This document shows positions 22,700-54,200 of a stretch of 64,000 nt of DNA, one piece after another. The translations under genes and the position numbers were made by a program. The DNA is from Prosthecobacter fusiformis. Lineage in GTDB: Bacteria > Verrucomicrobiota > Verrucomicrobiia > Verrucomicrobiales > Verrucomicrobiaceae. The notes beneath the pieces are model-generated. The model ran no database searches. It worked only from the letters and a program-made list of their open reading frames with translations, and was not told where the DNA came from. How positions within the stretch are numbered: the first letter of the stretch is position 1; each line of letters starts with the position of its first letter. The stretch covers positions 62,001-126,000 of the forward strand of contig NZ_SOCA01000001.1 in the NCBI RefSeq assembly GCF_004364345.1, given 5' to 3'.

Positions 22700-22712
22700 A
22701 CAGTACGAGGTC

Positions 22713-29018: not shown

Positions 29019-29042
29019 AGGAACAAAACAGTGGCGGTCATG

Positions 29043-30416: not shown

Positions 30417-30454
30417 GATTGGATCATTAAATGTTAGGCGTAACCGCTCTGGAT

Positions 30455-33923: not shown

Positions 33924-33927
33924 AGCC

Positions 33928-35127
33928 ATGCCCAATCGTATTTTTGACACTGCAAGGATGGAGGAAATGCTCGGTAGTATCCGTGATGGGCGCTGCGTGC
34001 TGTTTCTTGGCCCGCAGGCCGCATTGTTACCTGATGGTCGCCCGGTGGAACAAGCCTTGATCAAGGTGGCGGTGGACCATCTGAAAAGGTTTGCGCCAGC
34101 GTGGGTGAACGAGAACGGAGAGGACTTTGGGAGCCTTGCCTACCTATGCCAGGCGGTGGGAACAGACCAGCGTGATGAGATTCGAGACAAGCTAGTTGGC
34201 GAACTTGCCAAGTGGAAAAAAGCCGCCACAACAGGCCCCTTCCACAACACGCTGGCGGATCTACCTTTCACCCTGATCGTTCAGGTCACGCCTGACCCCT
34301 TTATGGAGATTGCCTTGTCGGCGAAACATATCCCTCCTGGCAGACTCGCAGCGCACGCGTATGATTTTCGTGAACCCTACGAGGCAGGGAATACGGGTAC
34401 GCGGCGTAACCTGCCTCACGTGGGAAGCTCCGCTGAGCCTTTGCTGTACTATCTGGGCGGACGGGCACAGAACCCGCGCTCTATCCCCTTCGCCTCCGAG
34501 GAGGAAGTAAACCACCTCGTGGCGCTGGTCAGGGAGCAGCCGCCCTTGCCCCTGGCGCTTACTGAGGCGCTAAGGGATGGTGGCGATAATCACCGCTCGG
34601 CACTTTTCGTGGGCTTCGAGTTTGGAGCGTGGCAGACACGCTTTTTGCTGCGTGGACTCTACACGCAAGTGGCTCGTCCCTACAGGGCGGTGTCCACATC
34701 CCTTGAGCAGGCATGCAAGCGAGCACCTTCAAAAGAAGATGAGGAGTTTCTCTGGGCTGCCTACCGTGTTGTTTTCGCCGATAAGGCCCCCATCGACTTC
34801 GCCAAGGCACTGCGAGATGACTGGACAAAGTTCAATCAGACCACGCCTCCGCCTGCGCAAACTGGCAGCCCCGTTAATCAAGGTAAGGTTGTGGAGTTCA
34901 TCGTGTACCATGTACCCTCCGACGATCTGCTGCTGATCGCTCAAAGCATAACAGAATTCTGGAGGGAGCATCACCCTGCCTTCGAAAGTTACAAGACAAG
35001 CAAACGAGCACGCGAGCTTGTCACCTTCATGAGCGAATTGAAGCGGTTACCCGATTTGCTCACACGCATTCGAGAACGCGTCCCCACTGATTTCTCTGCC
35101 AGCGAACCCACCTTCTACACCTTCTGA
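33928..35127 (+). CDS. divergent SIR2-like protein
   Basis: This 399-residue cytoplasmic protein follows the SIR2_2/SIR2-like pattern of defence proteins. The elements are a beta strand plus glycine loop (RCVLFLGPQAAL, residues 22-33), HNTLADLPFTLIVQVTPDPFMEIAL (106-130) where typical members have T-N-x-D, PLLYYLGGRAQNPRSI (171-186) where the catalytic histidine (LHG) is expected, and ALFVGFEFGAWQTRFLLRGL (225-244). The key Asn and His appear to be missing, so NAD hydrolysis may be lost and the fold may act in NAD or ADP-ribose sensing instead. Residues about 300-399 form a separate helical module that may connect it to its partners. A TTG start at 33901 is in frame but would overlap the CHAT gene. 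The STAND gene begins five bases downstream. Confidence 0.72.
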   Translation: MPNRIFDTARMEEMLGSIRDGRCVLFLGPQAALLPDGRPVEQALIKVAVDHLKRFAPAWVNENGEDFGSLAYLCQAVGTDQRDEIRDKLVGELAKWKKAATTGPFHNTLADLPFTLIVQVTPDPFMEIALSAKHIPPGRLAAHAYDFREPYEAGNTGTRRNLPHVGSSAEPLLYYLGGRAQNPRSIPFASEEEVNHLVALVREQPPLPLALTEALRDGGDNHRSALFVGFEFGAWQTRFLLRGLYTQVARPYRAVSTSLEQACKRAPSKEDEEFLWAAYRVVFADKAPIDFAKALRDDWTKFNQTTPPPAQTGSPVNQGKVVEFIVYHVPSDDLLLIAQSITEFWREHHPAFESYKTSKRARELVTFMSELKRLPDLLTRIRERVPTDFSASEPTFYTF

Positions 35128-35132
35128 GCGTC

Positions 35133-38100
35133 ATGGACACCGCACTTCCAGCGCCCAAGTCTGCTGACACTCCTCTCACAGTTAAAGTGCACCGCTATCC
35201 GGGCACCCGAGCCTTTCAAGACAAGGAGCTTGACCGCCGCCTCTTCACTGGGCGGGACACAGAGATTCGAGAGCTGTGCCAACGCATCTTGAGTCATCGC
35301 ATCGTAGTCCTCTACGCAACCTCGGGCACGGGCAAATCCTCCCTATTGAAAGCGGGTGTCTTTCCCGAGCTGCGGGCTCGTGGATATCTGCCACTGGATG
35401 TGCGCTTTGACTTCTCGAAGGAGTGCACCTTGGGAACGCAGTTGGACAAGGAAGTCCGGCGTGAGTGTGCTCGTCCCGAGCAAGCTGCTACCTTGATCGA
35501 TGCGCCGTCCGACAGCCCCACCTTTGAGCATTACTTTGATCAGGCCGAGTTCTGGGGAACACGCGGCCCGATGGTTCCAGTGCTAGTACTCGACCAGTTC
35601 GAGGATGTCTTCAAGCGTCACAAGGACCCAAAAATTGCCAAGCAGATCGCCCAGGCCCAGGCGGTCCTTTTTAAGGAAATTGCTAGCCTAATCACATCGC
35701 CGCGCGACATGCGGCTAGTGCTCTCCTTGCGCGAAGATGCGATAGGCACGCTGCTTGCCATGGGTCACGAGATTCCGGGCCTCACCCATCACAATCTGCA
35801 ACTCCTGCCGCTCTCGGCAGAAAACGCCATTGAGGCGATTAAACTGCCTGCCACAAAAGATTTCGGCAAGTACAATGCTCTCTACACCCCCCCCTTTGAA
35901 TGCGATGATGATGCTGTTCGCCCACTCACGAACTGGCTCGCGGAGAAGTCACGTGCCGTGATCAAAGACACTATGCGCGGGGAGGGGGGCGGAGTGGAAA
36001 CCTTCGTTCTGCAGATCTTCTGCGAGCACATTGAGGCTCACGCGATCCGCGAGATAGCAGCAGGTCGCACTGGGACTTTCACCACAGCACTGTTTGAAGG
36101 CAAGGGAAAGAAAGAAGCCGTGCTTCGTGACTATTACCATGGCAAGCTTCTTCGCTTTCTTGTCAGTCGCACCCAGGAAGAGGCAGACAAGCTGGATCTA
36201 CAGCAGTTGGAAAACAGGTGGTTGCTCCCGCGTCTTGCGAATAGATTCATGTTCAATCCGATGAGGTCGTGGCGCGTGCTCAATCTCCTGGAACGCGACC
36301 TTCTCACCAGCGATGGTGGGCGGCGGCCCGCCCGCCGTGATGAAATCATGCGTCTCCGGGGGCTGCAGGAGTGGGAAGTGGTTTGGCTAGAAGCCCAGCG
36401 TCTTGTGCGTTCAGAACCCTTTGGCGGCCAAAATTTACTCAACCTTAGCCATGATCAACTCGCGGCGGCGATTCACGAAAGGAGCCTGTTACGCTTCGTC
36501 CGGCGTCAGCTTTACGTAGGGATCACCATCACTGTCGCCTTTGCTCTCTGCATTGTTGCTGCTTTATGGGTTCATGCTGCACAGATAGATGCTGCTAAGG
36601 AACGCATACGTGCCGATCATGAGTTTGCGCTCCGCACTGCTGCTGCGGAAGCAGCGTTGGAGCGAGCTGGAGAGCAAACCGGGATGAACGCCCTGGCAAC
36701 GCTCGCAGCGGCCGTGAAGACCCTGCCCAGTGATGATACTGCGTTCTTCCATCTCGTGGATGCAGCGATGTCCGAGGGCATCTCCATTCCTCTCGGCTAC
36801 AGGCAACTTGTTAAAGACCCGGGTGCATTCGATAACGGGAGGAAGACTGAAATTCTCCCCGACGTAGATGGAAACCACTTCGGCCATTTACGTGGTGCTA
36901 AGTTGGAAGTCATCTCCCTTTTAGGTAGCGATGAACCTCGTATGATCCATATTCCTCCAGACCTCAGCAAGGCCAGCTTTGCACTAGGTAATGGTGGTAA
37001 AGCGGTTGTAGCCATCAACAAGCGTTCTGCGACAAAGGCAGCACCCGGCATCGGGCCTTCCGAACGACCAGTGACTGGTAAAAAAATGGATCTGCACATC
37101 CATCAGAACGGTATCTTGCCCTGGCCGAAGACTGAGCTACCGCCCATCAGCGGGGATCTCCACGAGCTTATGCTCAGTCCACGAGCCCATTGGTTGATTA
37201 TGGCAGATCGCAAGAAAAAGAACCTCCTATGCTGTGATCTTCAAGGGCATCCTCTACCCCTTCCCCTGGGTAAAAAAGCTGGCGATGTCCGATGGCTGTG
37301 CTTTCCAAAGCAAGACGACATTGTAGTTGCAGCTATATATGATTCAGGAGCTGCTCCAGATTCTGAATTTCAGAGCACATCGGCCTTTGTAAAGCGAGGG
37401 GATAACTCTGAGTGGTTACCCCTAAAACTGAAAGATGTCCGCGTTGCCGAATTCAGCATGAACGGCGGCTGGCTGGCAGTTGTTCATGGCCATGAAATAA
37501 GCTTTTTTTCGCGCACAAACCTAAATCAAGACACATCACTAGCAACTACGCAGACATTCCCTCTTAGACAGATACTTCCAGTGGAAAAGGAGGAGCCGCG
37601 CACACTGAATATTCAAACGCTCACATTTTTTGAGAATGATCAGCGCATGATTGTTAGCGGAAGAATGAGATCTGAACTCGATTATACCTATACCGATGAG
37701 CTTTATTATTTTAGCTTGAGAAACGAAAAGTGGCAGGTTGATTTTAGCACCCAGACTCAGAAGAGAGACGAGGAGTCCGATCTCAGCTCAACCAAACTTA
37801 GAGACCTCCTTATACGTCGTATAGAAGAAAGCACCACTCAACTTGACCGCCCGACTCGCTGGCAGTTCGATCCCTCTGGACGTTGGGCCTCTACTCCGAC
37901 TCAAATCATCGATCTTTTGGGCGACAGAAGCCCACCATTTAGCTACCCTTGGCAAAGCATTCAGTTGGAGGAAGAAGATAGGCGCCCACGGATGCCCCCT
38001 AATCTTGGCAATTGGCTGTCCCCCACCTTAGCGCCCCCCCCATTGCTACGGTTACTGGAACCTAGCGGTGCATATGCAGATTGGCGTTTGGGCAGCGTCC

Positions 38101-40244
38101 CCATACTGCGCCCATCCCTCCGACTGTTAGGTAAACCAGAACGCAAAGCACGAATAGCTCCTGATAGAGCCTGCTTGATCGTTTGGGACGAAGACAGACG
38201 CTGGACTGGGACGGCAAACATACAAGATCAAAGTGCCCCTAGTCCAGGCATTATTCTACCCGAAGGATGGACAGTCCTAAATATTACGGCAGCCAAGTAC
38301 CTTTTAGCCTACTCGGAATCCAGTAACAGTCTACAAGTGTGGGATGTGGCAATACCGGAGGCACCACTCTTCAAAGAAGAAATTAAGCTCTCTACAGACA
38401 TAAATATCCAACCCAGTCGCGACAACGCATTGGTCAATGTCGCAGGAGACCGCATCTTCATTGCAGATACTCTATCGAGGCTTTTTTGGCAGTTCGCTTT
38501 TGCCTCAAAAACCTGGACGTCACAGCCAGCAGAGCGTGTGCTCGACCTGCCTCATGGATGGATCTTACAATCCCACACTACTGAATCTGAAGACGAGGAT
38601 AGCCTTGCCAGTTCGATGGAGTACAAAGCGAGCATTGCCAAAGCCAGCACTCCAGACAAACCACTACATGTCAATCTGCGAAGCGGTTACACTCATTTAA
38701 AGGTTACACCCGATGGTCGTGGGTTGATAATTGTTTATCCGGAAACAAGCAAGTCCACTTCTGGCCGGAGGAACTCACAACTATTACTCAGGCACTATGA
38801 ACTGACTCCTGATGAAGGACTAAAGGATCCGCAAGAATGGCTCCTTAACGGGGATGCCGAAGTAGATGACATAATGACTTCTCCGGACTTGCGCTGGTGC
38901 ACTGCACTCATAAATGGCTCCACGCCTAAAATGTGGGACCTACGACTCCCTGCCAGCAATCAAAATAATGGCCGACCAGCGCTGCCCTTGGGAGAATGGA
39001 GCATCGGCAGCGACCAATACTACTTCAACGAAAATATTACCAAGCGGAAGGTCGCCATTATCCCTGAACGGCATGAACTGGTCATCGAAGGCGAGGACAA
39101 GGTATTCCATATACCTTTCTCAGAGTGGCGTCCTGGCACGACTCCAGAAGAGCTTGCTGATCGCATAAATTTCGCTGACCTAGTCTCCACTCTCACCAGT
39201 GAACAAGAGTTTCGCACCTCTATGCGTAGAAGTGGAGCCATCAGCAAAAAAATCATACCAGGCGAAGTCTTGCTTGAGCGCTATGGCAAAGACATGAGCA
39301 ACCAAAGTCTAGCCAAAGTCACGGCTTGGCTCATGAATGGCGGTTCGGTGCGCGAGCATCCCTTCACGACTCGGCCTATTGGTGACTGGATCGCCGAACG
39401 CCTGACCGCAGAAACCATCGATGATACGATACAAGCATATAGAGCCTCGCCCAGTGATCCAAAAGTATTGCGTGCTCTAGGCAAGCTCTTGTTTAAAGAA
39501 TCAGGCCATCAGTCCAGCTTTACCTCTGAGGCTTGCTTTACTTTTGCCAGAGAAAACTCTTCAGCCAGTGAGCACGCCGAGATTGACGCGGAGTGGGCTC
39601 AAGTATCCCAACACGGGGCCCTGCTCTTACTCGATAAGATCTTTCAAGGCACCGAATACTCTTCTTTCAGGACTTACAGTAAAATGAAGGTTCTGCAGCA
39701 AGTGCAGAAGAGGCTGGGCAGTCTTGGTTACTATCAAGGTGCGCCTGACGGCCGGACAGATAGTTTGAATCATGCCGCGATTGTTCAATGGCAGGCCTCC
39801 CGAGGTCAGCCGCCCACAGGATTGTTGTCAACGAATGACATAAAACAATTAGGAATGAATAATTTACTGGAGCAACATGCACCTGCCCTCGGCGGAAAGT
39901 GGCTTGGCACTTATTATTATGGGACCGATGAATCAGCTGCACAAAAACCGGTCGAGTTTAAGCTTACTATCCAGAACAATCACGGTGACTCTTGGTTCAC
40001 AGGTATTTACACAGAGCCATACTCTGGCTTCGGATCTCGTGGGCCTGACGGGCAGATGCATGGCTTAGTGTCAGGCTCTATCATTGATGAAAATGGCAAG
40101 ATGAAAATTCAATTCAACAAGACTTACCGTTATTTTCACCAACCTCCTATAGTTTACGAGGGCACGCTCAATCCAGATACAGGCAAAGCCTATGGCAATT
40201 GGGGCGGTAAGCGAGGAACGTTTACCTTGGAACGACAGCCTTAA
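35133..40244 (+). CDS. membrane-anchored STAND-type ATPase with peptidoglycan-binding domain
   Basis: This 1,703-residue protein begins with a novel-STAND/NACHT-like NTPase. The pre-Walker segment is RYPGTRAFQD ... RLFTGRDTEI, the Walker A motif is TSGTGKSS (K68), and the Walker B motif is VLVLDQFEDVF (D154). Winged-helix-like sequence follows to about residue 450. A transmembrane helix lies at about residues 458-480 (LYVGITITVAFALCIVAALW). The long region 490-1480 is beta-rich and propeller-like, but I see no clean WD40 signature. Residues about 1517-1572 form a PG_binding_1 domain (VQKRLGSLGYYQGAPDGRTD). The last about 120 residues form a beta-barrel-like domain (GGKWLGTYYYG ... GNWGGKRGTFTLE). 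The layout suggests an NTP-driven switch inside the cell with a sensor in the periplasm (inference). The gene is co-directional with CHAT and SIR2-like genes. Confidence 0.85.
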   Translation: MDTALPAPKSADTPLTVKVHRYPGTRAFQDKELDRRLFTGRDTEIRELCQRILSHRIVVLYATSGTGKSSLLKAGVFPELRARGYLPLDVRFDFSKECTLGTQLDKEVRRECARPEQAATLIDAPSDSPTFEHYFDQAEFWGTRGPMVPVLVLDQFEDVFKRHKDPKIAKQIAQAQAVLFKEIASLITSPRDMRLVLSLREDAIGTLLAMGHEIPGLTHHNLQLLPLSAENAIEAIKLPATKDFGKYNALYTPPFECDDDAVRPLTNWLAEKSRAVIKDTMRGEGGGVETFVLQIFCEHIEAHAIREIAAGRTGTFTTALFEGKGKKEAVLRDYYHGKLLRFLVSRTQEEADKLDLQQLENRWLLPRLANRFMFNPMRSWRVLNLLERDLLTSDGGRRPARRDEIMRLRGLQEWEVVWLEAQRLVRSEPFGGQNLLNLSHDQLAAAIHERSLLRFVRRQLYVGITITVAFALCIVAALWVHAAQIDAAKERIRADHEFALRTAAAEAALERAGEQTGMNALATLAAAVKTLPSDDTAFFHLVDAAMSEGISIPLGYRQLVKDPGAFDNGRKTEILPDVDGNHFGHLRGAKLEVISLLGSDEPRMIHIPPDLSKASFALGNGGKAVVAINKRSATKAAPGIGPSERPVTGKKMDLHIHQNGILPWPKTELPPISGDLHELMLSPRAHWLIMADRKKKNLLCCDLQGHPLPLPLGKKAGDVRWLCFPKQDDIVVAAIYDSGAAPDSEFQSTSAFVKRGDNSEWLPLKLKDVRVAEFSMNGGWLAVVHGHEISFFSRTNLNQDTSLATTQTFPLRQILPVEKEEPRTLNIQTLTFFENDQRMIVSGRMRSELDYTYTDELYYFSLRNEKWQVDFSTQTQKRDEESDLSSTKLRDLLIRRIEESTTQLDRPTRWQFDPSGRWASTPTQIIDLLGDRSPPFSYPWQSIQLEEEDRRPRMPPNLGNWLSPTLAPPPLLRLLEPSGAYADWRLGSVPILRPSLRLLGKPERKARIAPDRACLIVWDEDRRWTGTANIQDQSAPSPGIILPEGWTVLNITAAKYLLAYSESSNSLQVWDVAIPEAPLFKEEIKLSTDINIQPSRDNALVNVAGDRIFIADTLSRLFWQFAFASKTWTSQPAERVLDLPHGWILQSHTTESEDEDSLASSMEYKASIAKASTPDKPLHVNLRSGYTHLKVTPDGRGLIIVYPETSKSTSGRRNSQLLLRHYELTPDEGLKDPQEWLLNGDAEVDDIMTSPDLRWCTALINGSTPKMWDLRLPASNQNNGRPALPLGEWSIGSDQYYFNENITKRKVAIIPERHELVIEGEDKVFHIPFSEWRPGTTPEELADRINFADLVSTLTSEQEFRTSMRRSGAISKKIIPGEVLLERYGKDMSNQSLAKVTAWLMNGGSVREHPFTTRPIGDWIAERLTAETIDDTIQAYRASPSDPKVLRALGKLLFKESGHQSSFTSEACFTFARENSSASEHAEIDAEWAQVSQHGALLLLDKIFQGTEYSSFRTYSKMKVLQQVQKRLGSLGYYQGAPDGRTDSLNHAAIVQWQASRGQPPTGLLSTNDIKQLGMNNLLEQHAPALGGKWLGTYYYGTDESAAQKPVEFKLTIQNNHGDSWFTGIYTEPYSGFGSRGPDGQMHGLVSGSIIDENGKMKIQFNKTYRYFHQPPIVYEGTLNPDTGKAYGNWGGKRGTFTLERQP

Positions 40245-40260
40245 CATCAGTCAGCCTGCC

Positions 40261-40974
40261 ATGAAACACATTTGGATCATCACTCTCTTCGGTCTTGTGA
40301 GCTGCCACAGACCTTCCCTGACTGAGCTTCCGCAACAAGGCAGCGCGATGCAGGGACGGATCATCGTTTCCGGTTTCGAACCTTTTGACGGAAGGAGGAG
40401 GAATGCGTCTTATCAAATAGCCCAACTAGTCGCAAAAGCCGGGACGGGGCGAGATATCACCGTTTTGGAAGTTCCCGTTCACTGGGGCGCACCAGAAAAG
40501 GCTCTGGCCTCGCAAAAGGCGAGGCCATGGACCCTGTGGCTAGCCTTCGGAGAAGGCACTAACATCTTCCAGATTGAAACTGTCGCAAACAATAGGCGTA
40601 TCAACACGGAGGATAACAACGATCAAAAGCCGTCTCAAGCGCAGATGATAAAAGGTGCGCCAGAAAAGCTAACCTCTCTCTTCCCTGCAGCTGCATTATG
40701 TGACGCCTTAGTTAAACGGGGTCTGCCCGTCCGCGTCTCCGTCGAAGCGGGAAATTACCTCTGTGAAGAAATGTTATTCAACCTCCTACACTCTCAGGCA
40801 GAGGTGCCTGGTCCGGCACCCGTAGTCCTCTTTATTCACACGCCGGTGCTCGGAGCCAAAGTCAAGATGCCTGATGGCAGCGAGCGCCTGATGAACGAAG
40901 ATCTCTTGGGGAAATTCGCTGCCGCTATTCTTCCGGCTATCGAGGAGTCGCTGCTAAACTCAGTTGAACCTTAA
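40261..40974 (+). CDS. pyroglutamyl-peptidase I-like lipoprotein
   Basis: This 237-residue member of peptidase family C15 has all three catalytic positions: E106 (FQIETVANN), C168 (VEAGNYLCEE) and H193 (VLFIHTPV). The family's N-terminal GFEPFDGRRRNAS motif is also present. Unlike ordinary cytoplasmic Pcp it begins with a lipoprotein signal, MKHIWIITLFGLVSC, with the lipobox Cys at 15, so it should be anchored at a membrane and act outside the cytoplasm. It would remove N-terminal pyroglutamate from peptides. I chose the ATG at 40261, 16 bases after the STAND gene's stop, because it starts the signal. Its position between the STAND and caspase genes suggests a role in the same system, but it could be a passenger. 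Confidence 0.85.
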   Translation: MKHIWIITLFGLVSCHRPSLTELPQQGSAMQGRIIVSGFEPFDGRRRNASYQIAQLVAKAGTGRDITVLEVPVHWGAPEKALASQKARPWTLWLAFGEGTNIFQIETVANNRRINTEDNNDQKPSQAQMIKGAPEKLTSLFPAAALCDALVKRGLPVRVSVEAGNYLCEEMLFNLLHSQAEVPGPAPVVLFIHTPVLGAKVKMPDGSERLMNEDLLGKFAAAILPAIEESLLNSVEP

Positions 40975-41072
40975 GCACGCCAAGCGAAAATCACCCTTGC
41001 TATCATGAATGATTTGCTTAACGTTACCAACTGAATGTCACGTATGTGGAGTCATAATGATTGTTTACAAAG

Positions 41073-42926
41073 ATGAAGCGGGCAGCCATCATCATCGGTG
41101 TCGACAGGACCGGAGGCATGCCCCCCCTGAGAGACGCTGCCAAAGGTGCCCGACGTTTTGAAGACTGGGCACTGAGCCAAAAATTTGATTCTATACATGT
41201 TTTCACCGACGAGGACGACAGCGTCGTGGAAGTGGGGGCAATTAAGAGGGCCATCAAAAAGATGGTTGATACTGGCACCTTTGAGCAACTTGTGATCTAT
41301 TTCGCGGGCCATGGCGTGAACATCGGCTATGGCGAGTATTGGTTGCTATCTGACGCGCCTGGAGACCCACAGGCGGCAGTCAATATCCGCAGCAGTACAT
41401 GGCAGGCCGAATACTCCGGCATTCCACACACCATCTTCATTTCCGATGCCTGCCGTACAGCTGCTGAAGGAGGAACAACCCAGAGGGTGACTGGCAGTGA
41501 AATTTTTCCTAACGACGGAGTCGGTGGGTTAGCAAAGCCAGTAGATATTTTTTATGCCTGTACGTTGGGACGTCCGGCACTTGAGATCCGGGATCGGAAT
41601 GTGGCGGCAGGCGCATTTACAGCTTTGTATACCAGTGCATTTCTTGATGTATTGCAGGGCAAGCACGCTGAACTCCTGGAATGGAAAAAGGAGGCAGGCA
41701 AGTCCGTTGCCTACGTACGACCAAGGCCGCTGAAACCTCATCTAACCGCAGAGGTACCACGTCGTATCACCCAACTCAAATTGCAGGCAACCGCGATCCA
41801 GGAGCCGGACGCGCGGATCGTTTCGGATGACACCGCCTGGATCGCACGACTTACCGAAGAGGAAGGGTTTACACCGCCTAGGCCAACAGCATTTTCAATA
41901 CCCATACGGAGAAGCAATGCATATCGCGCAGGGGTGAAGCCCGCATTAGCTCCTGTCACAGCAGCTTCAGCGGCATGCATTCTGTTGCGGTCAGTGCTGA
42001 AAGACGGCATCCAAGGTATCATGACAGCCTCGGAGCCCCCGGAACTGATCACTCGACGCCGCACCCGTAGCCCGAAACTCACCACTCTCGATAAGGACTC
42101 GGTGGCATGCGTCGCTACATTGAACTCCCTAGCGAGGAAAGCTGCGATCCCATTCGGGCCACCCCATCAAGAGACCCATTGCGGCTTCAAAATTCGGGGT
42201 GCCAAATTTGTCAAAGCTTGGTGCAACGGATCAATCGCAGAGGTCATAGACCAGCCTGGTGATTTGATTCGTATGCACAATGTTCCAACCCCAAGCACTA
42301 GCGTTCTACTGGAGTTGGAGAATGGAACAGGCATGTTGCTGCCAGCCATTCCCGGATTCCTCGCCGGTCTCACGGTAGAGGATGGGGAATTGATAGACGT
42401 AGCCTATGAACCCTCCGATAACACCTCACGTTGGGATACTTACCGCCAACACGCTGCAGATCTGCGGGCACTTCGTGCGGTAGCTTCATCTGCTACCCGG
42501 AGCGGTGTGTTTCGGCTGGAGAATGAAGACGCACTGGAAATCATGCATCGGATGCAGCATTTCAAAAGTGTTGATCCCTCGCTAGCCATCTATGCCACCT
42601 ATGCCTATCATGACATTCGTCTCCGCGAGCTCATCCAGCAAATAAGCAATTCTATGAGGGACGATCTTGGAGCCCGCTTGTTCGATATTGCCTTGCTTGC
42701 TGGTGAACTTCACAAAGTCCAAATCGGCGCATCCAAAGATCAGGCTCTCATCTCCCCATTCCCTCTGCTCGCTCAAGGTTGGGCACTCCTCGCCGCCCAG
42801 GCAGTTACCTTGCCGGACGCCCTCAAGGACATTCAATGCTCCCTCCTGCCTTCGGTCTGGACGCTGTTTAACCCCGAAGGAGTGAGAAAAATCCAAACTG
42901 CCATAGAACAACGAGAAATTATATGA
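41073..42926 (+). CDS. caspase-like (C14 family) protease with long C-terminal region
   Basis: This 617-residue protein has an N-terminal caspase-fold domain. AAIIIGVDRTGGMPPL forms the first strand, the catalytic His is H80 (LVIYFAGHG), and the catalytic Cys is C127 (IFISDACRTA). A substrate-loop region (IFYACTLGRPALEI) follows. Residues about 270-617 are an all-cytoplasmic C-terminal region with no domain I recognise; its end contains DPSLAIYATYAYHDIRLREL, which may be a helical regulatory module. A TTG codon at 41061 would be an alternative start. The stop overlaps the next gene by four bases (ATGA), so the two are translationally coupled. Such proteases act as executioners in bacterial suicide systems (family knowledge); the target and trigger here are unknown. 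Confidence 0.85.
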   Translation: MKRAAIIIGVDRTGGMPPLRDAAKGARRFEDWALSQKFDSIHVFTDEDDSVVEVGAIKRAIKKMVDTGTFEQLVIYFAGHGVNIGYGEYWLLSDAPGDPQAAVNIRSSTWQAEYSGIPHTIFISDACRTAAEGGTTQRVTGSEIFPNDGVGGLAKPVDIFYACTLGRPALEIRDRNVAAGAFTALYTSAFLDVLQGKHAELLEWKKEAGKSVAYVRPRPLKPHLTAEVPRRITQLKLQATAIQEPDARIVSDDTAWIARLTEEEGFTPPRPTAFSIPIRRSNAYRAGVKPALAPVTAASAACILLRSVLKDGIQGIMTASEPPELITRRRTRSPKLTTLDKDSVACVATLNSLARKAAIPFGPPHQETHCGFKIRGAKFVKAWCNGSIAEVIDQPGDLIRMHNVPTPSTSVLLELENGTGMLLPAIPGFLAGLTVEDGELIDVAYEPSDNTSRWDTYRQHAADLRALRAVASSATRSGVFRLENEDALEIMHRMQHFKSVDPSLAIYATYAYHDIRLRELIQQISNSMRDDLGARLFDIALLAGELHKVQIGASKDQALISPFPLLAQGWALLAAQAVTLPDALKDIQCSLLPSVWTLFNPEGVRKIQTAIEQREII

Positions 42927-43801
42927 AACGTAAGCTCATTTTCATCCACGGTCGGTCACAGCAATTCAAAGACTCCATCCAGCTGAAAGCCGAATGGATT
43001 TCTGCATGGAAAAAAGGCCTCAAATTGAATGGCCTGGAATTGCCCATGGAGGAAACAGATATCGCCTTCCCCTATTATGGTCAGACTCTCCATGACCTAG
43101 TAGAAAGATCCCCAGAAGTCGCTGAAATTATCATACGAGGTGCCGAAGAAGATGCCGCCAAGAAAGCGTTCGTCCGATCCGTCATCGAAGAGATCAAAAA
43201 GGCCAAGATCACCGATGAGCAGCTCGAAACGATCGTCGGCAGCGACGTAGTTGAGCGCGGCCCCCTCAATTGGCCCTGGGTCCGTGGCGTCCTACAAGCT
43301 GTCGATAAATACATCCCAGGCGGCAGTGGCAGCAGTATTGCGCTTGCCACCAACGACGTATACCAATACCTCAATAGCTCTGGCATTCGCGACTCTATTG
43401 AATCCGGCGTGCTCAAGGCCATTAGTCCCGGTATTGAGACAGTGGTCGTCAGCCACTCCCTTGGCACGGTCGTGGCCTACAACCTCTTGCGCCGTGAGGG
43501 AGAGTCCCGCGAATGGAAGGTACCACTCTTTGTAACCTTGGGATCCCCTCTCGCTGTGACTGCAATTAAAAAGGCCCTGCGTCCCATAGGCCATCCATCC
43601 TGCGTCTCTAAATGGTACAATGCTATGGACCCACGCGACATCGTGTCCCTGCGACCACTGGACGAAGATCATTTCGACATCTCCCCCTCCATCGAGAACC
43701 ACCTCGAGGTCAACAATCACACCGATAATCGCCACGGCATCGCTGGCTATCTGGACGATAAACAAGTGGCCAAACGCATCTACGATGCATTGGTCGCATG
43801 A
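42923..43801 (+). CDS. alpha/beta-hydrolase (lipase/esterase-like) coupled to the caspase
   Basis: This 292-residue cytoplasmic hydrolase starts with KLIFIHGRSQ (oxyanion-hole strand). The nucleophile elbow is VVVSHSLGTVVAYNLL with S179; the first glycine of G-x-S-x-G is Ser here. An acid residue is likely in NAMDPRDIVSLRPLD, and a His lies in NRHGIAGYLDD. The first 150 residues include an insertion rich in charged helices (AEEDAAKKAFVRSVIEEIKK) that may form a lid or a binding surface. The gene overlaps the caspase gene by four bases, so the hydrolase is probably a partner or second effector. Membrane lipids or an ester signal are possible substrates (inference). A 181-base convergent gap follows, with no clear terminator. 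Confidence 0.82.
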   Translation: MKRKLIFIHGRSQQFKDSIQLKAEWISAWKKGLKLNGLELPMEETDIAFPYYGQTLHDLVERSPEVAEIIIRGAEEDAAKKAFVRSVIEEIKKAKITDEQLETIVGSDVVERGPLNWPWVRGVLQAVDKYIPGGSGSSIALATNDVYQYLNSSGIRDSIESGVLKAISPGIETVVVSHSLGTVVAYNLLRREGESREWKVPLFVTLGSPLAVTAIKKALRPIGHPSCVSKWYNAMDPRDIVSLRPLDEDHFDISPSIENHLEVNNHTDNRHGIAGYLDDKQVAKRIYDALVA

Positions 43802-43982: not shown

Positions 43983-46900
43983 TTACCGCAGAACAAATCG
44001 TGGAGCCCATACTGACGCTTTCCAGAAAGAATCTACCGATTTTGTGAAGTCGCAATCAAAGCACTTCCAGAACCATCCAGAAGTAATAGCCTGAATAGTC
44101 CAACTTTCTTGAACCAAAAGGCACTCGGAAACTAACCTTGATGAATATATGTCGCTCGGTTCTGAATAAAATTGTTGCCCAAGATTAAGCGGATCCATGA
44201 TAGGTAAGGCATCTGCATATGTTTTTTTCTCTTTCGTGAAACGCAACTCCACCCGGCAAACCCTGAACCCACCCAGCCACAAAGGAAATACAACACAAGA
44301 TCTAGATTTACTCACCATCACACCAGCAGAGTTGGCATGATTTTCCTTTGTATCCCAAGTCGAAGCCCAAGCCTCCCACGAATCATTAGTGGTGTTGATG
44401 ACTTGACTAAAATTGTGAAGCGCAGTTCCTGAGCCATCAATTAGAGAAATATAAGGAACATTTGGAAACATTTGCTGAAGCCATTCTTCCAAAGAACGCA
44501 TTATCTGAATAGTATGCTTAGCATTCCGTGCAGAGACGCCAAAAATAGCAAGGCTAAGACTTGAAAACCACAAAGACTTAACCATATCCTTTGTTATTAC
44601 TCCGTTTGCAAAATCCAGTGAAATACAGCCCCGCGTTTTCCCATGCCTTCCAACCCAGACAACGGGGACAGTAATCCCGGAGGCAACTTCCTCTAGAGCG
44701 TGGACAGGACAAAGATAATGCGGAGGATTATCTTTAGCATCAAAAGAGATAACCCCCGGAGAATGATCCCCCAGTCCGATTCCAGTCATTCCATCTATGC
44801 AAAACCACCCCATGCAGCGTTGAGTTCTTGCAATCTCGTGGTCATCCCATCCCTGCCTGCGGTTCGCAATAGCATGATAAGCAAGTAATTTAAGGAACAG
44901 ACTTCCATGCCCTCTTTCCACGACAATTCTTAGGCTGACATGGACAGGTTTTTGACATTCAAGCTGACTTGGTCTCCTTGCTTCAAACACCGCCACAATG
45001 TCTTGTAAGCACGAATCAAGCCACTTTCTGTTTACTGCACTTGCTCCAAGCCTTGCGGTAAGCCTCTTAAAAGCTCCTAGTTGTTGGCTATCATTCTCTA
45101 ACTGGGTAGGCGGGTAATTTTCAACGATTTTATCAATTGATTGCTCTAACAACTTCCCGACTGCTCTATTTCTAGAGTTAGAAATCTGAGGCTGTTCACG
45201 ATGTCGGGTGTGGCGGTCAAAAATATTGGCAACAGATTGCACTAATAAGTGAAGCATTGTCTCATCTGCTTCGACAAATGGCCTTTGGCTGTCTCCACGG
45301 ACGAGTCGAACAACACCGACGACTCGACCCTTTCTAGTTACAGACGCTGCCAATATTCTTCGATGAGCAGTCCTAGTAGGAGCACCAGCCTCACGAAGGC
45401 GATTTTGAGGAATGATCCGAATCTTCCTTTCCAATCCATTCACTATACATTTAACAATCTCGCGAGCGTCGGGCACGTTGTGCTTCCGAAGACTGCATCC
45501 AATATTAGCTCCAACAAACGGAGTTATCGCTTGATACAGTGGAATACGTTTATGGTCATAAACAATCGGTTGAGGTTCCTCTAAATCATAAGCTTTGTCC
45601 CCTGGGTTTCCAATGAGACCGGAAGTCGAAACGCAGACCAATTTATTTTGAACTTTCATGAAGACCGAACACCACTCAGAATTGAGGCATTCAGAACAAA
45701 CCTGCCTAATTTGCTCAAACTCATCAAAATTTTTAACACTACTTTCTTGTAGGCGCGAATAAAGAGTAGCCAATGCTATTCGAGCCTGAATTTTACGGAT
45801 TGAATCAATAAATCCGCCAATTAAGGTGGCAAGTCCCGTAACGACTGCGTTTGAAAATACGTGATCAAGCGCGAAGTCACCCTGTCCCTGCTCGTGTTTA
45901 AAAGAGTACACAGTCAATACTCCTTCAACAACTTGCTCACTCGCATTAGGGGATGCTATCTCGTAGATGGGCGTTGCAATTATACGGCTAACCTCCATTC
46001 TGCCCGCTTTATTAGGGCGTCGAAACTCTTGGAAATCATCGACTGAGCCACGTAATACTCGACCATGCGCCGTATCACGAGCTATTCGTCCGACTAAGCT
46101 TTCTACGGGAAGAGTTGATTCGGCGATATATTCATAATCGAACTTGGATGTCCCTTTGACATACAAACACTCTTTTATCTGATCAAAGTGCCAGATAGTG
46201 CAACTCGCACTAGTTCCAAAACTACCAGTCTGTGCAGCAGAAGCTATCTGAGCGCATAGCTTGTTTAATAGCTCAGTTCTATCCCATTTGTGGCATTCGG
46301 GATTCCAGCCATACATTGAATGAACCCCCTCAGAGCTCCGAAGAACCTGGATCCCTGGTGCTAATGCAGCAGCGGCAGATTCAACCTCACTTACCTGAAC
46401 TGCAGCAAAAGCTCCTGGGTATCTAGCCTCCAGATTCAAGACGCCAATCAACTCGAACTCCATTTCGACCGGACAGGAAGCCCCATTTGAAGCAGCGGGA
46501 CTTGGGCAGTATATTGGCACCACGACCTCGGACTTTGTGGAAGGTATAGTTTTACGATAAATATAATTTGAAAGATGTGTCTCCGGCTGCACCAATTTAC
46601 GGTCCTTGTCTGTAATATCACGAACGTTGTTGATCAAGTACGATTGCCCGGTTGCAGCGACGTGACCTACAATACCCTCTCCAGTCACAGCTATCTTCCT
46701 CTCGATTTTAGGATATGGTACATTAAAGGCAATATCACAAACTAATCTACGTGAACCCTCATCACTGTAGCCGTGAATTGATGGAGGATCTTTCACAATG
46801 AATAACATTCCTGCAGTTGCTCCAAACCGTTCGGTTATTGCCGCCACTTGCGCTTTCAGCCGGTCCTTGGCACTCTGAATAGCCTCCAGCTTCATTGATT

Positions 46901-48530
46901 CAATAAAGTTATGAGCAGATTCCAGCGGAGATAATGGAACACGACCTTGCAAATTGGCTTTGAGCTTCGCCCTCACATTGAGAAGCGCAGTATTTTTAGT
47001 TCGATCTGATTTATATGTATCCTCTTCGATAAGAAGTCTACATTTTAAGTAACAGGCTAGTGAGAGTTCTCTTTCGAGTTCTTTTAACGATACTGTAGGC
47101 TGTGGGATACCTCTTTCTTTTCTAATTCTATGAGTATTTGAAACATTTTGAACGGTCTTTCTAAATACCCTCTCAGCATGCTCAATCGCGTCCCTTCCAA
47201 TTTTTACTGAATCTGATAAAGCCTTCCATTCTTGGACACTTGCGTGATCGTTTTTCGCAAGATTTAACAATCGAGAAATGCATGCCCGGTGGACTTCAGT
47301 GCAGTCATTTCGATCTAAAATATTGGAAAGAATGCGCTTAACATTCTCAGTATCAACCGGTTGATTTAATTCGCTTTGACTAGTTACCTCGTCTCTAAAT
47401 TGATCGAGTAATTGAGCTATTTGATAACTTTGCGAATCAGCACTTACTGGTATAATCGGTGTTAATTTCAGCAGCGTATGATTCTGCTCTGGGTCAAAAA
47501 CCCCGACTTGCGTTGCATTCGAACCAGTGCGCACTTTCATAATTAAAACTGCATCTCCTTGAGGCAGGGTTCCATGGCTTGCAGCACTCGTGAACCACCA
47601 AGGTTCTGGCCGCGCATCTGTCTTGATGGCAATTCCGCTCCCCCCAAAACGACCATCATTACAGTAGATCGTAGGGATCTGATTGGATGCCAAGTGGTCC
47701 TGGAGGGCACGAAAGTTTGCATGCTTCGAATCGTAGCTAGAAATTACTACAACGTCCGCTTCATTCATAGCCTTTGAACCCAGATATTGTAATGCTTCAG
47801 AGCAAATGAGGGGGAGAACTGTAACTTGTGATACATTTTCTCCATCTGACACACGAAGCTCGTATGTAGGTAAGTCTGGCGGGAAGTTATCAAAATGCTG
47901 GCCTATAAGTGGTGCTTCATGCGGAGAATAAACAAATTTTGGACGCAAATTCACGGAAAGTTTGAACAGATTTTTCCCCTTTCTCTTTTTTGAAGTACCG
48001 TGAATGTCTTGTATTGGGTTTAAAATATGAGGGTCAAGGCTGGTCTCTCCAAGAACCGGCATGACAGTAGTTCTTGATGAGCTGCGAGCTCGAACGCCAT
48101 CAAGGACCTCGCTTGATACCCCGAGATTTTCATACTCTTCCCATGCCAGAATGCTGTCATCGAGTGCATGAGTTCCTGCGAACACCAAACAATTAAAATT
48201 TAGTCTTTTCCTCAAGCATTTTAAAAATTGCCTGGGCACCGCACCTTCAGAAAAGACTACGACATGAGGTTTAACGCTCACGTCCAAATTATTCAACCAA
48301 TCCACAACTGCAGTAAGTCGTGCGCAGTGCCAGAGAAGGTATTTATTGAAGCATAGTTGCTGAAGGTCATTCACCTCCACACCAAGATTTGCGAGCGACT
48401 GTAAAATTGGCTCTTCACTCGAGAAAGGCTCTTTAAGATAGTTTACTGCACCTAAAGTAAAACACGGATGGCACTCGAGTTGTACGACTGCAATTCTTAC
48501 ATCGGCAATTGTTTTTGTTGTGGCATTCAC
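43983..48530 (-). CDS. nitrilase-superfamily domain fused to multiple GAF-like domains
   Basis: This 1,515-residue protein starts with a carbon-nitrogen hydrolase (nitrilase) domain, residues about 10-340. It has the catalytic Glu in VVFSEG (E95), a Lys in FKLSVNLRPKF (K190 or K198) and the nucleophile Cys in LPLICSEAL (C243). A charged helical linker follows (350-560). Three GAF-like domains come next: about 565-730 (AGMLFIVKD ... VTGEGIVGHVAATGQ), 755-905 (SCTIWHFDQ ... VGRIARDTAHG) and 935-1105 (WCSVFMKVQ). The last 400 residues are unrecognised but GAF-like in places (LCPVHALEEVASGITVPVVW). It starts at a GTG. The gene is clearly more AT-rich than its neighbours, a sign of transfer. It faces the caspase pair tail to tail. 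A ligand-sensing amidase is the simplest reading; no exact family is known to me. Confidence 0.75.
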   Translation of the reverse strand: MNATTKTIADVRIAVVQLECHPCFTLGAVNYLKEPFSSEEPILQSLANLGVEVNDLQQLCFNKYLLWHCARLTAVVDWLNNLDVSVKPHVVVFSEGAVPRQFLKCLRKRLNFNCLVFAGTHALDDSILAWEEYENLGVSSEVLDGVRARSSSRTTVMPVLGETSLDPHILNPIQDIHGTSKKRKGKNLFKLSVNLRPKFVYSPHEAPLIGQHFDNFPPDLPTYELRVSDGENVSQVTVLPLICSEALQYLGSKAMNEADVVVISSYDSKHANFRALQDHLASNQIPTIYCNDGRFGGSGIAIKTDARPEPWWFTSAASHGTLPQGDAVLIMKVRTGSNATQVGVFDPEQNHTLLKLTPIIPVSADSQSYQIAQLLDQFRDEVTSQSELNQPVDTENVKRILSNILDRNDCTEVHRACISRLLNLAKNDHASVQEWKALSDSVKIGRDAIEHAERVFRKTVQNVSNTHRIRKERGIPQPTVSLKELERELSLACYLKCRLLIEEDTYKSDRTKNTALLNVRAKLKANLQGRVPLSPLESAHNFIESMKLEAIQSAKDRLKAQVAAITERFGATAGMLFIVKDPPSIHGYSDEGSRRLVCDIAFNVPYPKIERKIAVTGEGIVGHVAATGQSYLINNVRDITDKDRKLVQPETHLSNYIYRKTIPSTKSEVVVPIYCPSPAASNGASCPVEMEFELIGVLNLEARYPGAFAAVQVSEVESAAAALAPGIQVLRSSEGVHSMYGWNPECHKWDRTELLNKLCAQIASAAQTGSFGTSASCTIWHFDQIKECLYVKGTSKFDYEYIAESTLPVESLVGRIARDTAHGRVLRGSVDDFQEFRRPNKAGRMEVSRIIATPIYEIASPNASEQVVEGVLTVYSFKHEQGQGDFALDHVFSNAVVTGLATLIGGFIDSIRKIQARIALATLYSRLQESSVKNFDEFEQIRQVCSECLNSEWCSVFMKVQNKLVCVSTSGLIGNPGDKAYDLEEPQPIVYDHKRIPLYQAITPFVGANIGCSLRKHNVPDAREIVKCIVNGLERKIRIIPQNRLREAGAPTRTAHRRILAASVTRKGRVVGVVRLVRGDSQRPFVEADETMLHLLVQSVANIFDRHTRHREQPQISNSRNRAVGKLLEQSIDKIVENYPPTQLENDSQQLGAFKRLTARLGASAVNRKWLDSCLQDIVAVFEARRPSQLECQKPVHVSLRIVVERGHGSLFLKLLAYHAIANRRQGWDDHEIARTQRCMGWFCIDGMTGIGLGDHSPGVISFDAKDNPPHYLCPVHALEEVASGITVPVVWVGRHGKTRGCISLDFANGVITKDMVKSLWFSSLSLAIFGVSARNAKHTIQIMRSLEEWLQQMFPNVPYISLIDGSGTALHNFSQVINTTNDSWEAWASTWDTKENHANSAGVMVSKSRSCVVFPLWLGGFRVCRVELRFTKEKKTYADALPIMDPLNLGQQFYSEPSDIYSSRLVSECLLVQESWTIQAITSGWFWKCFDCDFTKSVDSFWKASVWAPRFVLR

Positions 48531-48708: not shown

Positions 48709-49977
48709 TCAATTCACAAGAACAACCTCCACACGCCCGTCTTTCACATACACCTCCAGCATGGGCCAGAGGCTCAGCGCATAATCGACGGCCCAAGGCG
48801 CTTTTGGGCAGGTGACGGCTGCTGAGTTTGACCTGCTAAGGGCTTTGTGCAGGCATTGCAGGATGAGACGGCTTTCGGCGCTGCGGACGGCCTGCCGCTA
48901 ACTTGGCTCGGCCCGGCTTTCCCGCTGCCGCGCTTCAATTCGGTAAAGATGGCCGATCTGCAAAAGCACCCAGCCTGCCTGCTGGGGGGCGCTGGTCTTG
49001 GCCTCAATGTACTTGCGCCGGGCATGCGCCTAGCAGCCCGCTAGAACGAGTCCTGTGCGACTGCGGGCTGTAGGCTGGATAGGCGGCGTAGCCTTCGCAC
49101 TGCACGGTGCCGCCGAAGTCCCCTGGCAAGATGTTGCCCAGGCAGGCGGAGCTGCGGCTGGTGGCCCAGGTGAAGCACACGTCGGCTCCGGGTCGCTTGC
49201 AGGTCCACAGGTAGCCTTGTTTGGTCTGGCCGTGGCCGGGGCTTAAATACTCCACCGGTGTCTCATCCACTTGCACGTAACCTCCGGCCATCACGCTGCT
49301 GCGGTTCTGCTCATAAACGGGGGTGAGCCAGTCGGCTGCCAGGGCCAGCCAACGGGCCATGCTTTGGCGCGGGATGTCCACTCCATGACGGGTGGAGTAA
49401 ATCTGCTCCTGGCGATACAGCGGCAGGTGGTCACAGTATTTGCCCACGATGATGGCGGCCAGCAGGCCGGGGGCGGCGAGGCTGCGCTCTTGCAAAGTGT
49501 TCAAAGGGGCGATGATGGGCGTCAGGTGGGGCTCTTCACGCTTCACATACTTGCGCCGGATGAGGCGGCGGCGCAGGAACCGGGCCGGTTCATAGTCGAG
49601 CTGTTCGGTGACTTCTTCGCCCATGCAGCGCCATGATTCAGGAGCGGCTTTGACCTCCTGAGGCTCGATGATTTCTTCCACTGCGGGCAGGTGCTCAGGG
49701 ACACGGTCTTCACGCGGTTTGCGTGGTTTTTTGGGTTTTGCCGCGGCTGCCTGCTTTTCGATCTCAGCCTCCAAGACGCCGGGGTTTGCGCTGGAAGCCG
49801 GGTCTTTTTTGACCCGTCATCCCCCTGCAAAAGCAGCATCAGCTGGCCTTCATCCATCACCTCGCTGCTGCGCCCGAAGATGCGTCGCACCAGCAGGTCG
49901 ATCTTTTCCCTCAAAAGCTTGATCTCCTGCCGCGGCGCCTCGTTCTCGGCAGTCAGTCTGGCTTCAAGAGGCGTCAT
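48709..49977 (-). pseudogene. tnpC: IS66 transposase tnpC, disrupted
   Basis: The reading begins at the ATG at 49977 (LTAENEAPRQEIKLLREKID ... RIFGRSSE), the normal IS66 transposase N-terminus. It then shifts frame in the T-run at 49805-49810 (one base too few). The middle part (49044-49774) retains the zinc-finger-like and DDE regions, including KYCDHLPLYRQEQ and VQVDETPVEY. A second shift near 49045-49055, an in-frame TAG at 49030-49032 where LAGCWAHARRK should read, and a TAG at 48898-48900 destroy the rest. The frame ends at VEVVLVN, before the usual C-terminal segment. No functional transposase can be made. Confidence 0.88.
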
Positions 49978-50052
49978 TGGAGGGCGGGCTTGGATGGCGT
50001 TTAAAACGCAGGCCGTTGACCCTCTTCTATCAAGTTTTGTTTCTACCCCTTT

Positions 50053-50404
50053 CAATCCCGCTGATACCACGGCCGCATGGAAGCCCCCTTCAAATCAATG
50101 CCATCGGTGAGCATCGCCAAGGCCTCCGGGGCCAGGCGCATCTTGGCTCCTTGCACCTCCCCAGGTTTGGGCCAGGAGAACGTGCCCGCCTCCAGACGCT
50201 TGGTCATCAGCCACAGGCCGCTGCCGTCAAATAAATCACCTTCAGCCGCGTGTGCCGTTTGTTGCTGAAGACAAAAAGAGCGCCGCTTTTGATGTCCTCC
50301 TTGAGCCGCTCGCCGACCAGCCCGCTGAGCCCTTCAAAACCCTTGCGCATATCGCAAGGCTCCAGCGCCACAAAAACCTTCAAACTGCCGGTAAAGCTCA
50401 GCAT
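50053..50404 (-). pseudogene. tnpB: IS66 accessory gene tnpB (Orf2), frameshifted
   Basis: The frame from 50404 reads SLKVFVALEPCDMRKGFEGL and continues to LKVIY, the hallmark of IS66 TnpB. A single missing base in the A-run at 50229-50231 then throws the expected FDGSGLWLMTKRLEAG out of frame. The correct continuation is readable in the other frame down to RPWYQRD at 50053. The start overlaps tnpA by seven bases, as is usual for IS66. A sequencing error in a short homopolymer is possible for this one lesion, but tnpC is damaged several times independently. Confidence 0.88.
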
Positions 50405-50799
50405 GGCCGCGACTCCTGCAAAGCGTTGAGAAGTTGCACCGCCAGGGTGATGTGAGCCGAACATTGAATGTGCAGTTTCACGCCACAGGACAGCTCAAGG
50501 ACCAGATCCGCCGTGGAGCGGGTTCCCGCCGCTTCACCCGCTCCTGCGGAGAAGACAGCCTCCACAAAAGACACTGGCCTGACCCGCTGCTGCTGCCGTA
50601 CTGAGCTGGACAGGCCATCCTTACGCCGCCAGCTCACGAAAGTTTGATATTTGACTCCGGCCATCGCCGCAAAGCGCGGCCGCGACAAGCCGCTGCGCTC
50701 ATACTCCAGCACCAGGGCAATCTGTCGCTCCACAGGCGTCTGCACGCGCCCCACTCGATCATTCTTCAATACAATGGCCTCTTTGTTCATACAGGTCAT
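50398..50799 (-). CDS. tnpA: IS66 accessory protein TnpA
   Basis: This 133-residue protein contains the IS66 TnpA-type helix-turn-helix. The pattern is ERQIALVLEYERSGLSRPRFAAMAGVKYQTFVSWRRK, residues about 24-60, followed by a C-terminal segment (LELSCGVKLHI). It probably binds the element ends. The frame appears intact. The next gene, tnpB, overlaps its 3' end. Because tnpB and tnpC are broken, this gene is a relic. Confidence 0.85.
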   Translation of the reverse strand: MTCMNKEAIVLKNDRVGRVQTPVERQIALVLEYERSGLSRPRFAAMAGVKYQTFVSWRRKDGLSSSVRQQQRVRPVSFVEAVFSAGAGEAAGTRSTADLVLELSCGVKLHIQCSAHITLAVQLLNALQESRPC

Positions 50800-51264: not shown

Positions 51265-54200
51265 TTAAAAAACAGATTTTCCGTTATGAACAAGAATTTT
51301 TTCACTGGAAATAAAATAATTATGAAACTCGTCAACTTCAAAGTTATAAACCTGAACCAAACCATCTCTGGTGTCTTTACTAACAGTAGCATCCACTCTT
51401 GATAGTGCTTTATCAACACCTTTGGCATTCCAAAGAACGTTTTGTGGTTTTAATTGAAGTGCTGCAATCCATTTGCTGTCCCCTTGATAAAATCTATGAT
51501 TAGAGCTGCATGATATAAATACATTATCACCTACTTTAAATTTAAATAGATCACTTCGAGAGGTCGTGAATGTTTTCGTTACTTTTCGAGTGACTATTTG
51601 ACCGCTCCTCTCATCATAGCAAAACACGTAGGAGTTTGTGCCTATAGTCTCAATTGGAAGCATCCCTTCAGGCGTCCAGACTAATGTTCCCGCCACAAAA
51701 CACCCGCCAGATGAAGGAGGGAATATCAAAGATGGAATATCTGAATTAGGAATGGATTTGTGTGGTTGCCAAGCACCGTTTTTGGGCTTGAATCGGCAAT
51801 ATTGATCAGACTCATACTTCGCTGCAGGAGCACTCCGGGGCCGCGCTGTTGGCTTTGGCATTATGCGAATCTGATCTCCAGAAGGGTGTTCATACATCCT
51901 TCCCCCGCCCGACTTAGTTGGCCCTTTATACACGAATCCTGAATCGTGAAGATGTTTAATCGTTCGATTAATTCCAATTTTGGGGGATACAGGGCATGTA
52001 CCAGGAGTATATGGAGCAACAGATGGCGGAACTACACGTGGAGCTATTGGCCGAATGGGCCCACGTCCGCCAAAACCTCCGCCACCTCCACCTCCCCCCC
52101 CGGCCATACCTCCTCCTCTTGGCCCACCCTGTAGACCAAGTGGATCCACCAGAACTATTGGAGAATTCGATACATATTCATAGAGATTAACGCCTCCATC
52201 TTCTTCAATTGGATCCTCACTGATCCACACTCCAGCCCTAGCATCATATGCTCTGTAAGGTGCCAAATGAAGATCACTTTTCTCATGGTACCAATGTCCA
52301 GTGAAACGGAAATCCGCCAAACGGCTTCCTCCTGGGCCTCCCGCTGCACTCACTGTCTGCACTCCGTAGGCGTCATATGCGTAGCTTTCGACCACCTCTT
52401 CCGCTTCATCCATCACTTGTCGCACGCTACCCAGATGATCATGTGTGAAGTAGTAGTTTAAATTATTCGACAGCGCCGTTCCCAAACTGGCATACCTCCT
52501 CACCACCACCCCCTCGGGTGTTCGTTCCTGCACGATTTCAGCTCCCTCCCACAGCAACAGTTTTTCTCCGATTACATCCCCGGCCTCATCTATTTCCACT
52601 TCTTTTACTCGTCGGTTCAGCGCGTCATAGGTAAATTCACTGCGACTGCTATCCCCGTAGTTGATCGCCACCAACTGGTTCAAGGCATCCCATTCATAGT
52701 CCTGCCCCCGGCCATTGTTCAGCATGTTGCCACGCAGGTCATAGCTGGGCTCGGTTTGTCCTGTTAGGCCGCTGACCTCCACCTCATAATCCTGCGAGGT
52801 TGCATTGCCGCTGCCATCCAAACCCGCCACGGTCACGACATTGGACCCCTCATCCAAGGACAGGTCCAGACTGAACCGGAACTGAGGCTCTTCCGACTCA
52901 TCCGACACCGTCCGCATCTTGGCCGTCTGGCTATTGACACTCACTGTCCCAGGCTCGTTAACGGTGCCCTCAAACCTCACCAGTCCGCCAGCAGGACGGG
53001 CATTCATCTGGTTCATGTTATTATGACCAAACTTCATCACACTATTCCCGTCTTGATAGCTAACCCGGTTTCCCCCTGCGTCGTAATTATAGTATTGTTG
53101 CCGCACGATCGAGCTGCCTTCTGTCACCACCACCGATCTCAGTTGATCCGAATCATCATGCTCCAAGGTCCAATCCTGCTGTGGCGCAGCTCCCACCTTT
53201 TGCGACCAGCGACGCAAATCACCTCCAAATCCGAAACCGTATCCATATTCCGAAATTAACTCATTAGCCGAGGTCCGGTGAGTGATTTTTTCCAAACGAT
53301 GATGCTGCGTCGCTGCAAGATACGTATAAGTGGTCTCCTGGCCATTGGGATAGTTCACCTTGGACAGACGAGACAAACCTTTGGATGACTGGTCGTACTC
53401 AAAACCAAAAGTGCCGAGAACATCGGTCATCTCGGTCATTCGTCCCATAGCATCATACTCCATGGCAACACGATGGTTGTCATCCACCAATTCATCATCC
53501 ACCACCGACCAGATTGAACGTTCCTGCACCCGTCCTAGTTCATCATAGGTGTAAATAATAGCTGCATTCAGATCGTGCTCATTCACACGGCTGATTGATC
53601 CCGCGCCCAGTAATGGTGCAGCCTGAGGGCCTGTCCGAAATGGAAAATATTCGTAGCTGATGCTTGCCTCAGTTGAAGATTTTTTTATCGTTTTTAATCG
53701 CGGATGAACGGGATCGTAATCAAGCCACACAGGAGGTGTTTTTACATCAAGGACGAACTTCGGCAACCCGTTTTCGCTCACCGGATTACCGCTTACATCA
53801 CGTTCACGGATGTAATATTTGATCTGCGAAATGGAATCGTCGTCGTTGTAGATAAACGCTTTTCTTGTATCGTCTGCAGTGGTGACATACTGGAGTCGGT
53901 TTTCATTGAGCATGTAGGTATATTCTTCCACCCGGCCGTTGGCCCGGATCTTTTTCACCTGCCGCCCAAGTTCATCATATTCCCAACGGGTGATATTGCC
54001 GTTGCCATCTATCAATTTTGCAAGAGATCCGCAGGTGCACCAGTCTAGTTCAATAGTGCGCCCTTCAGAATCCGTCTCAGAAACAAGCCACCCCATCTCA
54101 TTATATTTGCGATGAGTGAGGCGTCCCTTCCTGTCGCGGATAAGGACCGGGTCAAGACGATCCCAGACGACCTCTTCATATTCCGCATTTGCGAGAGAGA

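Follow-up and report, generated by a model that had tools for sequence, protein, structure and literature searches.

Several described immune systems carry a nitrilase domain. C-terminal nitrilases are carried by reverse transcriptases (RTs) of UG1 and UG5 (PMC8934634). Validated antiphage systems of P4-like satellites include a UG5 RT-nitrilase whose partner is a membrane protein of one helix (PMC9122126), and a C1116A change of the nitrilase cysteine abolishes the immunity given by DRT1, a UG1 RT-nitrilase that acts by abortive infection (PMC13275509). Type III CRISPR effectors also include nitrilases (PMC8157118). Here we describe a gene from Prosthecobacter fusiformis, found in a stretch of 64,000 nucleotides (contig NZ_SOCA01000001.1, positions 62,001 to 126,000; hereafter the window), whose product joins an N-terminal nitrilase domain, very probably of the same RT-associated branch, to an array of GAF domains. 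An earlier note on this DNA, made from the letters alone, had proposed such a fusion of enzyme and sensor, and both parts do lie in one open reading frame (ORF).

The window protein shares with UG5 RT-nitrilases (PADLOC RT_UG5-nitrilase and RTasNitrilase) the nitrilase branch and the E, K-x6-E and CSE motifs, but it has no RT, and its nitrilase stands at the N-terminus, ahead of the GAF domains, rather than at the C-terminus. DRT1 is alike by description, as a nitrilase effector under an attached sensor or regulatory part, an effector role being what we infer for the window protein. DRT1, however, is under the control of DNA adducts and filaments (PMC13275509), whereas the window protein lacks an RT. 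CARF-nitrilases (PADLOC CARF_m7--CARF_nitrilase, a model that also weakly matches RT-nitrilases) likewise combine a nitrilase with a small-molecule sensor, although CARF senses CRISPR cyclic oligoadenylates and the window protein has GAF domains. Pfam scans of the protein and of neighbouring genes found no RT (RVT) domain, and because none is fused or adjacent the protein is not filed as a DRT.

The nitrilase domain and its relatives

Residues 1-345 almost certainly belong to the nitrilase superfamily, and their placement in the RT-associated branch is nearly as secure. Two relatives bear on this: a homologue of the same architecture (L011:8277-12221, 27% identity) in a Verrucomicrobiaceae metagenome-assembled genome of the same genus, and a 1185-aa ORF on the viral contig IMGVR_UViG_3300047160_036269 (L067), found by scanning viral contigs with the cysteine region. 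The viral ORF opens with the same nitrilase domain (it scores 81.5 bits against the homologue, where the best of 4000 shuffles reaches 3.5) and matches PADLOC RTasNitrilase at E 1e-3. A profile built from the three nitrilases returned, from 96 relatives plus 388 genomes in the phylum (about 480, with some overlap), nine weak matches beyond the two known genes. Seven are RT-linked nitrilases, four fused to an RT (L091, L092, L093, L098) and three adjacent to one (L094, L099, L100); L101 is an unrelated sequence and L102 was left unclassified. PADLOC labels L091, L092 and L093 RT_UG5-nitrilase, at E 1e-266 to 1e-273, and gives RT_UG5_small plus RT_UG5-nitrilase/RTasNitrilase for the L094 pair, while the RT link of L098-L100 was assigned by eye from a YVDD/YIDD motif. 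Ordinary CN_hydrolases occur in 113/113 genomes of the class that were searched, yet are absent among the matches of this profile.

By hhalign, the three nitrilases match four RT-nitrilases at 97.1% (score 80.6; best of 199 column shuffles 28.2, reversed 15.6) and all seven at 97.8%. RT-nitrilases match 35 ordinary nitrilases at 95.6%, and the chain from the window domain to the superfamily is therefore closed. A tree also groups the three nitrilases with RT-nitrilases, but is given little weight because of its weak and unsettled support (83/55) and long branches. At L096:4483-8276 (+), a UG5 RT-nitrilase overlaps a downstream HNH nuclease-like gene, possibly its partner.

A Glu-Lys-Glu-Cys tetrad is present in the expected order as E95, K198, E205 and C243. 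The earlier note had named a triad of E95, C243 and either K190 or K198; the glutamate and cysteine stand, and the lysine is K198 (PK198FVYSPHE205), not K190. This residue was set by the ungapped K-x6-E motif, as MAFFT misplaced the catalytic lysine in two alignments. The window protein (PKFVYSPHE) shares it without gaps with the viral relative (AKQLPSPYETF) and all RT-nitrilases listed (PKRQPAWHE and LKRHYSPYETF among them), and the homologue has it too (KKHLSPPE). C243 aligns with the catalytic cysteine, so the segment does not fall outside the nitrilase active site, a possibility raised earlier. The homologue keeps the tetrad, with FPE, K-x6-E and PLVCSEAL in common with the window protein.

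An AlphaFold2 model of the domain from a two-row alignment (pLDDT 42, pTM 0.47) was compared with known structures by VIA-align, and 50/50 listed structures were of the nitrilase superfamily (Z 7.8-9.1, residues 4-340). These rows were re-ranked from Foldseek candidates having non-significant Foldseek E-values, so the fold match alone is not relied on; Foldseek itself placed RNase H2 (E 0.03) ahead of the best nitrilase (E 0.046). The alpha-beta-beta-alpha nitrilase fold is recognised from this low-confidence model together with the profile chain. Ordinary nitrilases (CN_hydrolase, PF00795) have the fold order and catalytic tetrad in common with the window protein, but it shows no significant direct sequence similarity to them and has CSEAL around its cysteine. 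The Pfam CN_hydrolase model, treated as a diagnostic aid and not as a definition of the superfamily, is unmatched by the window protein and by the fused RT-nitrilases as well, and PDB sequence searches gave no usable match. The absence of a named family, as claimed earlier, holds in that Pfam, NCBIfam, PADLOC and PHROGs have no model that spans the domain of the window protein; it does not hold for the branch, which is that of the known RT-associated nitrilases.

The viral relative carries the domain on a different sensor. After the nitrilase come a P-loop domain resembling NB-ARC (17.8 bits by Pfam, short of the cut-off) and TPRs, the same order of effector, NTPase and repeats as in STAND/NLR-like immune receptors such as Avs, whereas the window protein has GAF domains in place of the NTPase and TPRs. 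Pfam gives a STAND NTPase match, at that sub-threshold score, in the viral relative only and none in the window protein. The viral gene has a phage integrase next to it, along with genes of the YaaC-like and GmrSD_N kinds (L067:6679-9614, +), and an endolysin-like gene follows. The YaaC-like and GmrSD_N genes may mark a spot for defence cargo at the integrase.

GAF domains, gene structure and distribution

Judged from the sequence, the window protein contains two certain GAF domains and a likely third between them. Segments were compared by hhalign with 17 other GAF domains of the source genome, with 100 shuffles each. GAF1 and GAF3 outscore 100/100 shuffles; the middle segment (about 755-905) aligns over most of the GAF profile, 1/100 shuffles equalling its score, and it has a sub-threshold GAF match in the homologue and is 34% conserved between both proteins. 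GAF1 is shortened in the homologue. At least three GAF domains had been suggested before: two lie above the Pfam cut-off, within bounds (563-727 and 938-1102) close to those first given (565-730 and 935-1105), and the middle one is indicated by the weaker matches just described. Two C-terminal segments tried as further GAF domains were rejected on failing the shuffle test, which the linker (346-562) also failed. Pfam finds nothing in the first 560 or last 400 residues, in agreement with the large unrecognised C-terminus reported earlier (about 400 residues). This C-terminal region is 21% identical to that of the homologue, and its AlphaFold2 model (pLDDT 31) gave mixed structural matches with Z <=6.2.

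The frame of 1515 codons is uninterrupted, with no internal stop. Because the GTG has an in-frame stop a few codons before it, with no alternative start between, and the first nitrilase strand begins by residue 10, the N-terminus is taken as complete. The gene had been described as AT-rich against its surroundings, and indeed its GC content is 44.3% against 54.0% in the rest of the window, with 37.9% GC at third codon positions against 49-64% in the other window genes measured. From this composition it looks recently acquired. AT-richness is no property of the family, since the homologue gene has 55.2% GC.

The fusion is rare. It occurs in 2/68 genomes of the family, and no other nitrilase-GAF protein was found in plasmids, phages, viral contigs, genome contigs or up to 388 genomes per search, by pattern-seeded scans that can miss distant relatives. 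With just one homologue of this architecture, the gene is not a housekeeping gene, an alternative that the earlier note had allowed for. No paper on nitrilase-GAF or nitrilase-STAND fusions was found, within an incomplete coverage of the literature.

A candidate abortive-infection effector

We consider it fairly probable that the window protein is a nitrilase effector of the abortive-infection type, gated by GAF sensors instead of an RT. By its kinship to DRT1, such a role seems likelier than that of an amidase making or breaking a signal. The protein would act as a single-protein sensor-effector, whose N-terminal thiol amidase/nitrilase (Cys-Glu-Lys-Glu) of the UG5-nitrilase branch, related to DRT1, is kept inactive for as long as the GAF array detects no change. 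The GAF domains, perhaps with the C-terminus, may bind a small molecule or partner altered in infected or stressed cells, and binding would control assembly of the nitrilase or access to its active site. Once released, the nitrilase would either hydrolyse an essential metabolite that contains an amide or give rise to a toxic product, arresting growth of the cell and so blocking phage spread.

Several observations weigh against this proposal. The window protein has no match in the defence libraries, PADLOC included, and among the genes scanned around the homologue there is no recognised defence island. The architecture is known from two proteins only, both in one genus; the AlphaFold2 nitrilase model is of low confidence (pLDDT 42); direct HMM and profile comparisons with 6 and 35 ordinary nitrilases were not significant; and binding of a ligand by the GAF domains is something we infer.

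Most nitrilases are metabolic, metabolite sensing is common for GAF domains, and the source genome has six ordinary CN_hydrolases of its own, all of which would suit an amidase that serves nitrogen or xenobiotic metabolism and is turned on by a metabolite. We regard such an enzyme as unlikely, given the rarity of the fusion, its nearest relatives being RT-nitrilases and the STAND fusion of the viral contig, and the lack of any pathway common to the neighbours in both genomes. Somewhat less probable still is a mobile-element module for conflict or maintenance, aimed at competitors and not at phages. The homologue has an integrase, a TrwB/HerA-like protein and Replic_Relax about 10-14 kb away in its genome (G045), the window gene has an IS66 remnant beside it, and Rhs genes lie upstream of both the window gene and the homologue. 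Immunity genes ride the same elements, however, so this context fails to separate the two explanations, and a large sensor array better suits control within its own cell than delivery to another.

The suggestion of the earlier note, a ligand-gated amidase making or breaking a signal for STAND, CHAT and caspase genes as one system, is very improbable: such genes do lie within 11 kb, but on convergent strands and with a different base composition, and none occurs among the genes scanned on the 76-kb contig of the homologue, so that the fusion is independent of the caspase locus and a joint system was rejected as not conserved.

A wider reading can be offered tentatively, at somewhat less than even chances: the nitrilase branch would be a portable immune effector placed on at least three sensor types, namely RTs, receptors of the STAND-TPR kind and arrays of GAF domains. 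The version with GAF domains would be a suicide amidase gated directly by its ligand, with no need for nucleic-acid synthesis or for an NTPase. Should the branch be wired to other sensors without an RT, the nitrilase would be an effector module of general use, and its simpler GAF and STAND versions could be used for finding its substrate without interference from DNA-adduct filaments. The ligand of a directly gated GAF version would in turn reveal a cell-state signal altered by infection.

Feature coordinates and neighbouring genes

Table 1. Features of the nitrilase-GAF gene and the facing caspase gene, in window positions.
Feature	Position	Strand	Basis
Whole gene	43983..48530	minus	1515 aa, GTG start, single ORF
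Divergent nitrilase domain, residues 1-345	47496..48530	minus	AlphaFold2 and VIA-align; profile kinship to RT-nitrilases
Catalytic E95 (VVFSE95GAVP)	48246..48248	minus	Alignment
Catalytic K198 (PK198FVYSPHE)	47937..47939	minus	Ungapped K-x6-E motif
E205, second glutamate of tetrad	47916..47918	minus	K-x6-E motif
Catalytic C243 (PLIC243SEAL)	47802..47804	minus	Aligns with Cys of ordinary nitrilases (weak alone) and of RT-nitrilases
Linker, residues 346-562, no domain match	46845..47495	minus	Pfam, hhalign
GAF1, residues 563-727	46350..46844	minus	Pfam GAF_2; hhalign 0/100 shuffles
Probable GAF2, residues ~755-905	45816..46268	minus	Sub-threshold matches; 34% conserved in homologue
GAF3, residues 938-1102	45225..45719	minus	Pfam GAF in both homologues; hhalign 90.8%, 0/100 shuffles
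C-terminal region, residues 1105-1515, no domain match	43986..45218	minus	Pfam none
Caspase gene, Peptidase_C14	41061..42926	plus	Pfam

Six closely packed, co-directional genes occupy window positions 33117-43801 (+) in the order CHAT, SIR2_2-like, nSTAND1, C15, C14 and SHSLG protein, and look like one conflict system. The nSTAND1 protein (1703 aa) has a C-terminal peptidoglycan-binding domain, the C15 gene encodes a pyroglutamyl-peptidase, and the last ORF (292 aa) has no Pfam match and a serine-hydrolase-like SHSLG motif. The nitrilase-GAF gene lies tail-to-tail with the caspase gene and the 292-aa ORF. It had been described as facing a caspase pair; the convergent arrangement is as described, but the pair is loosely named, consisting of one Peptidase_C14 gene and the SHSLG ORF.

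The homologue contig carries DUF3800, HTH and several genes without assignment. Four genes upstream of the homologue (L011:14378-17407, -) have no Pfam match, one resembling a histidine-kinase-like ATPase by eye. In the window, a partial DDE_Tnp_IS66 transposase remnant and an IS66-like small ORF (49004-50799, -) lie directly upstream of the nitrilase-GAF gene, the remnant at 0.5 kb, and positions 51265-57114 (-) encode an Rhs protein of 1949 aa that carries Peptidase_C39 and, at its C-terminus, a pretoxin HINT domain. An Rfam search of the whole window gave no match. A run of similar-sized genes at 16540-32026 (-) begins with a sulfatase and ends with a PhoD-like gene, and a 2817-aa PATR-repeat autotransporter-like protein is encoded at 1175-9628 (+).

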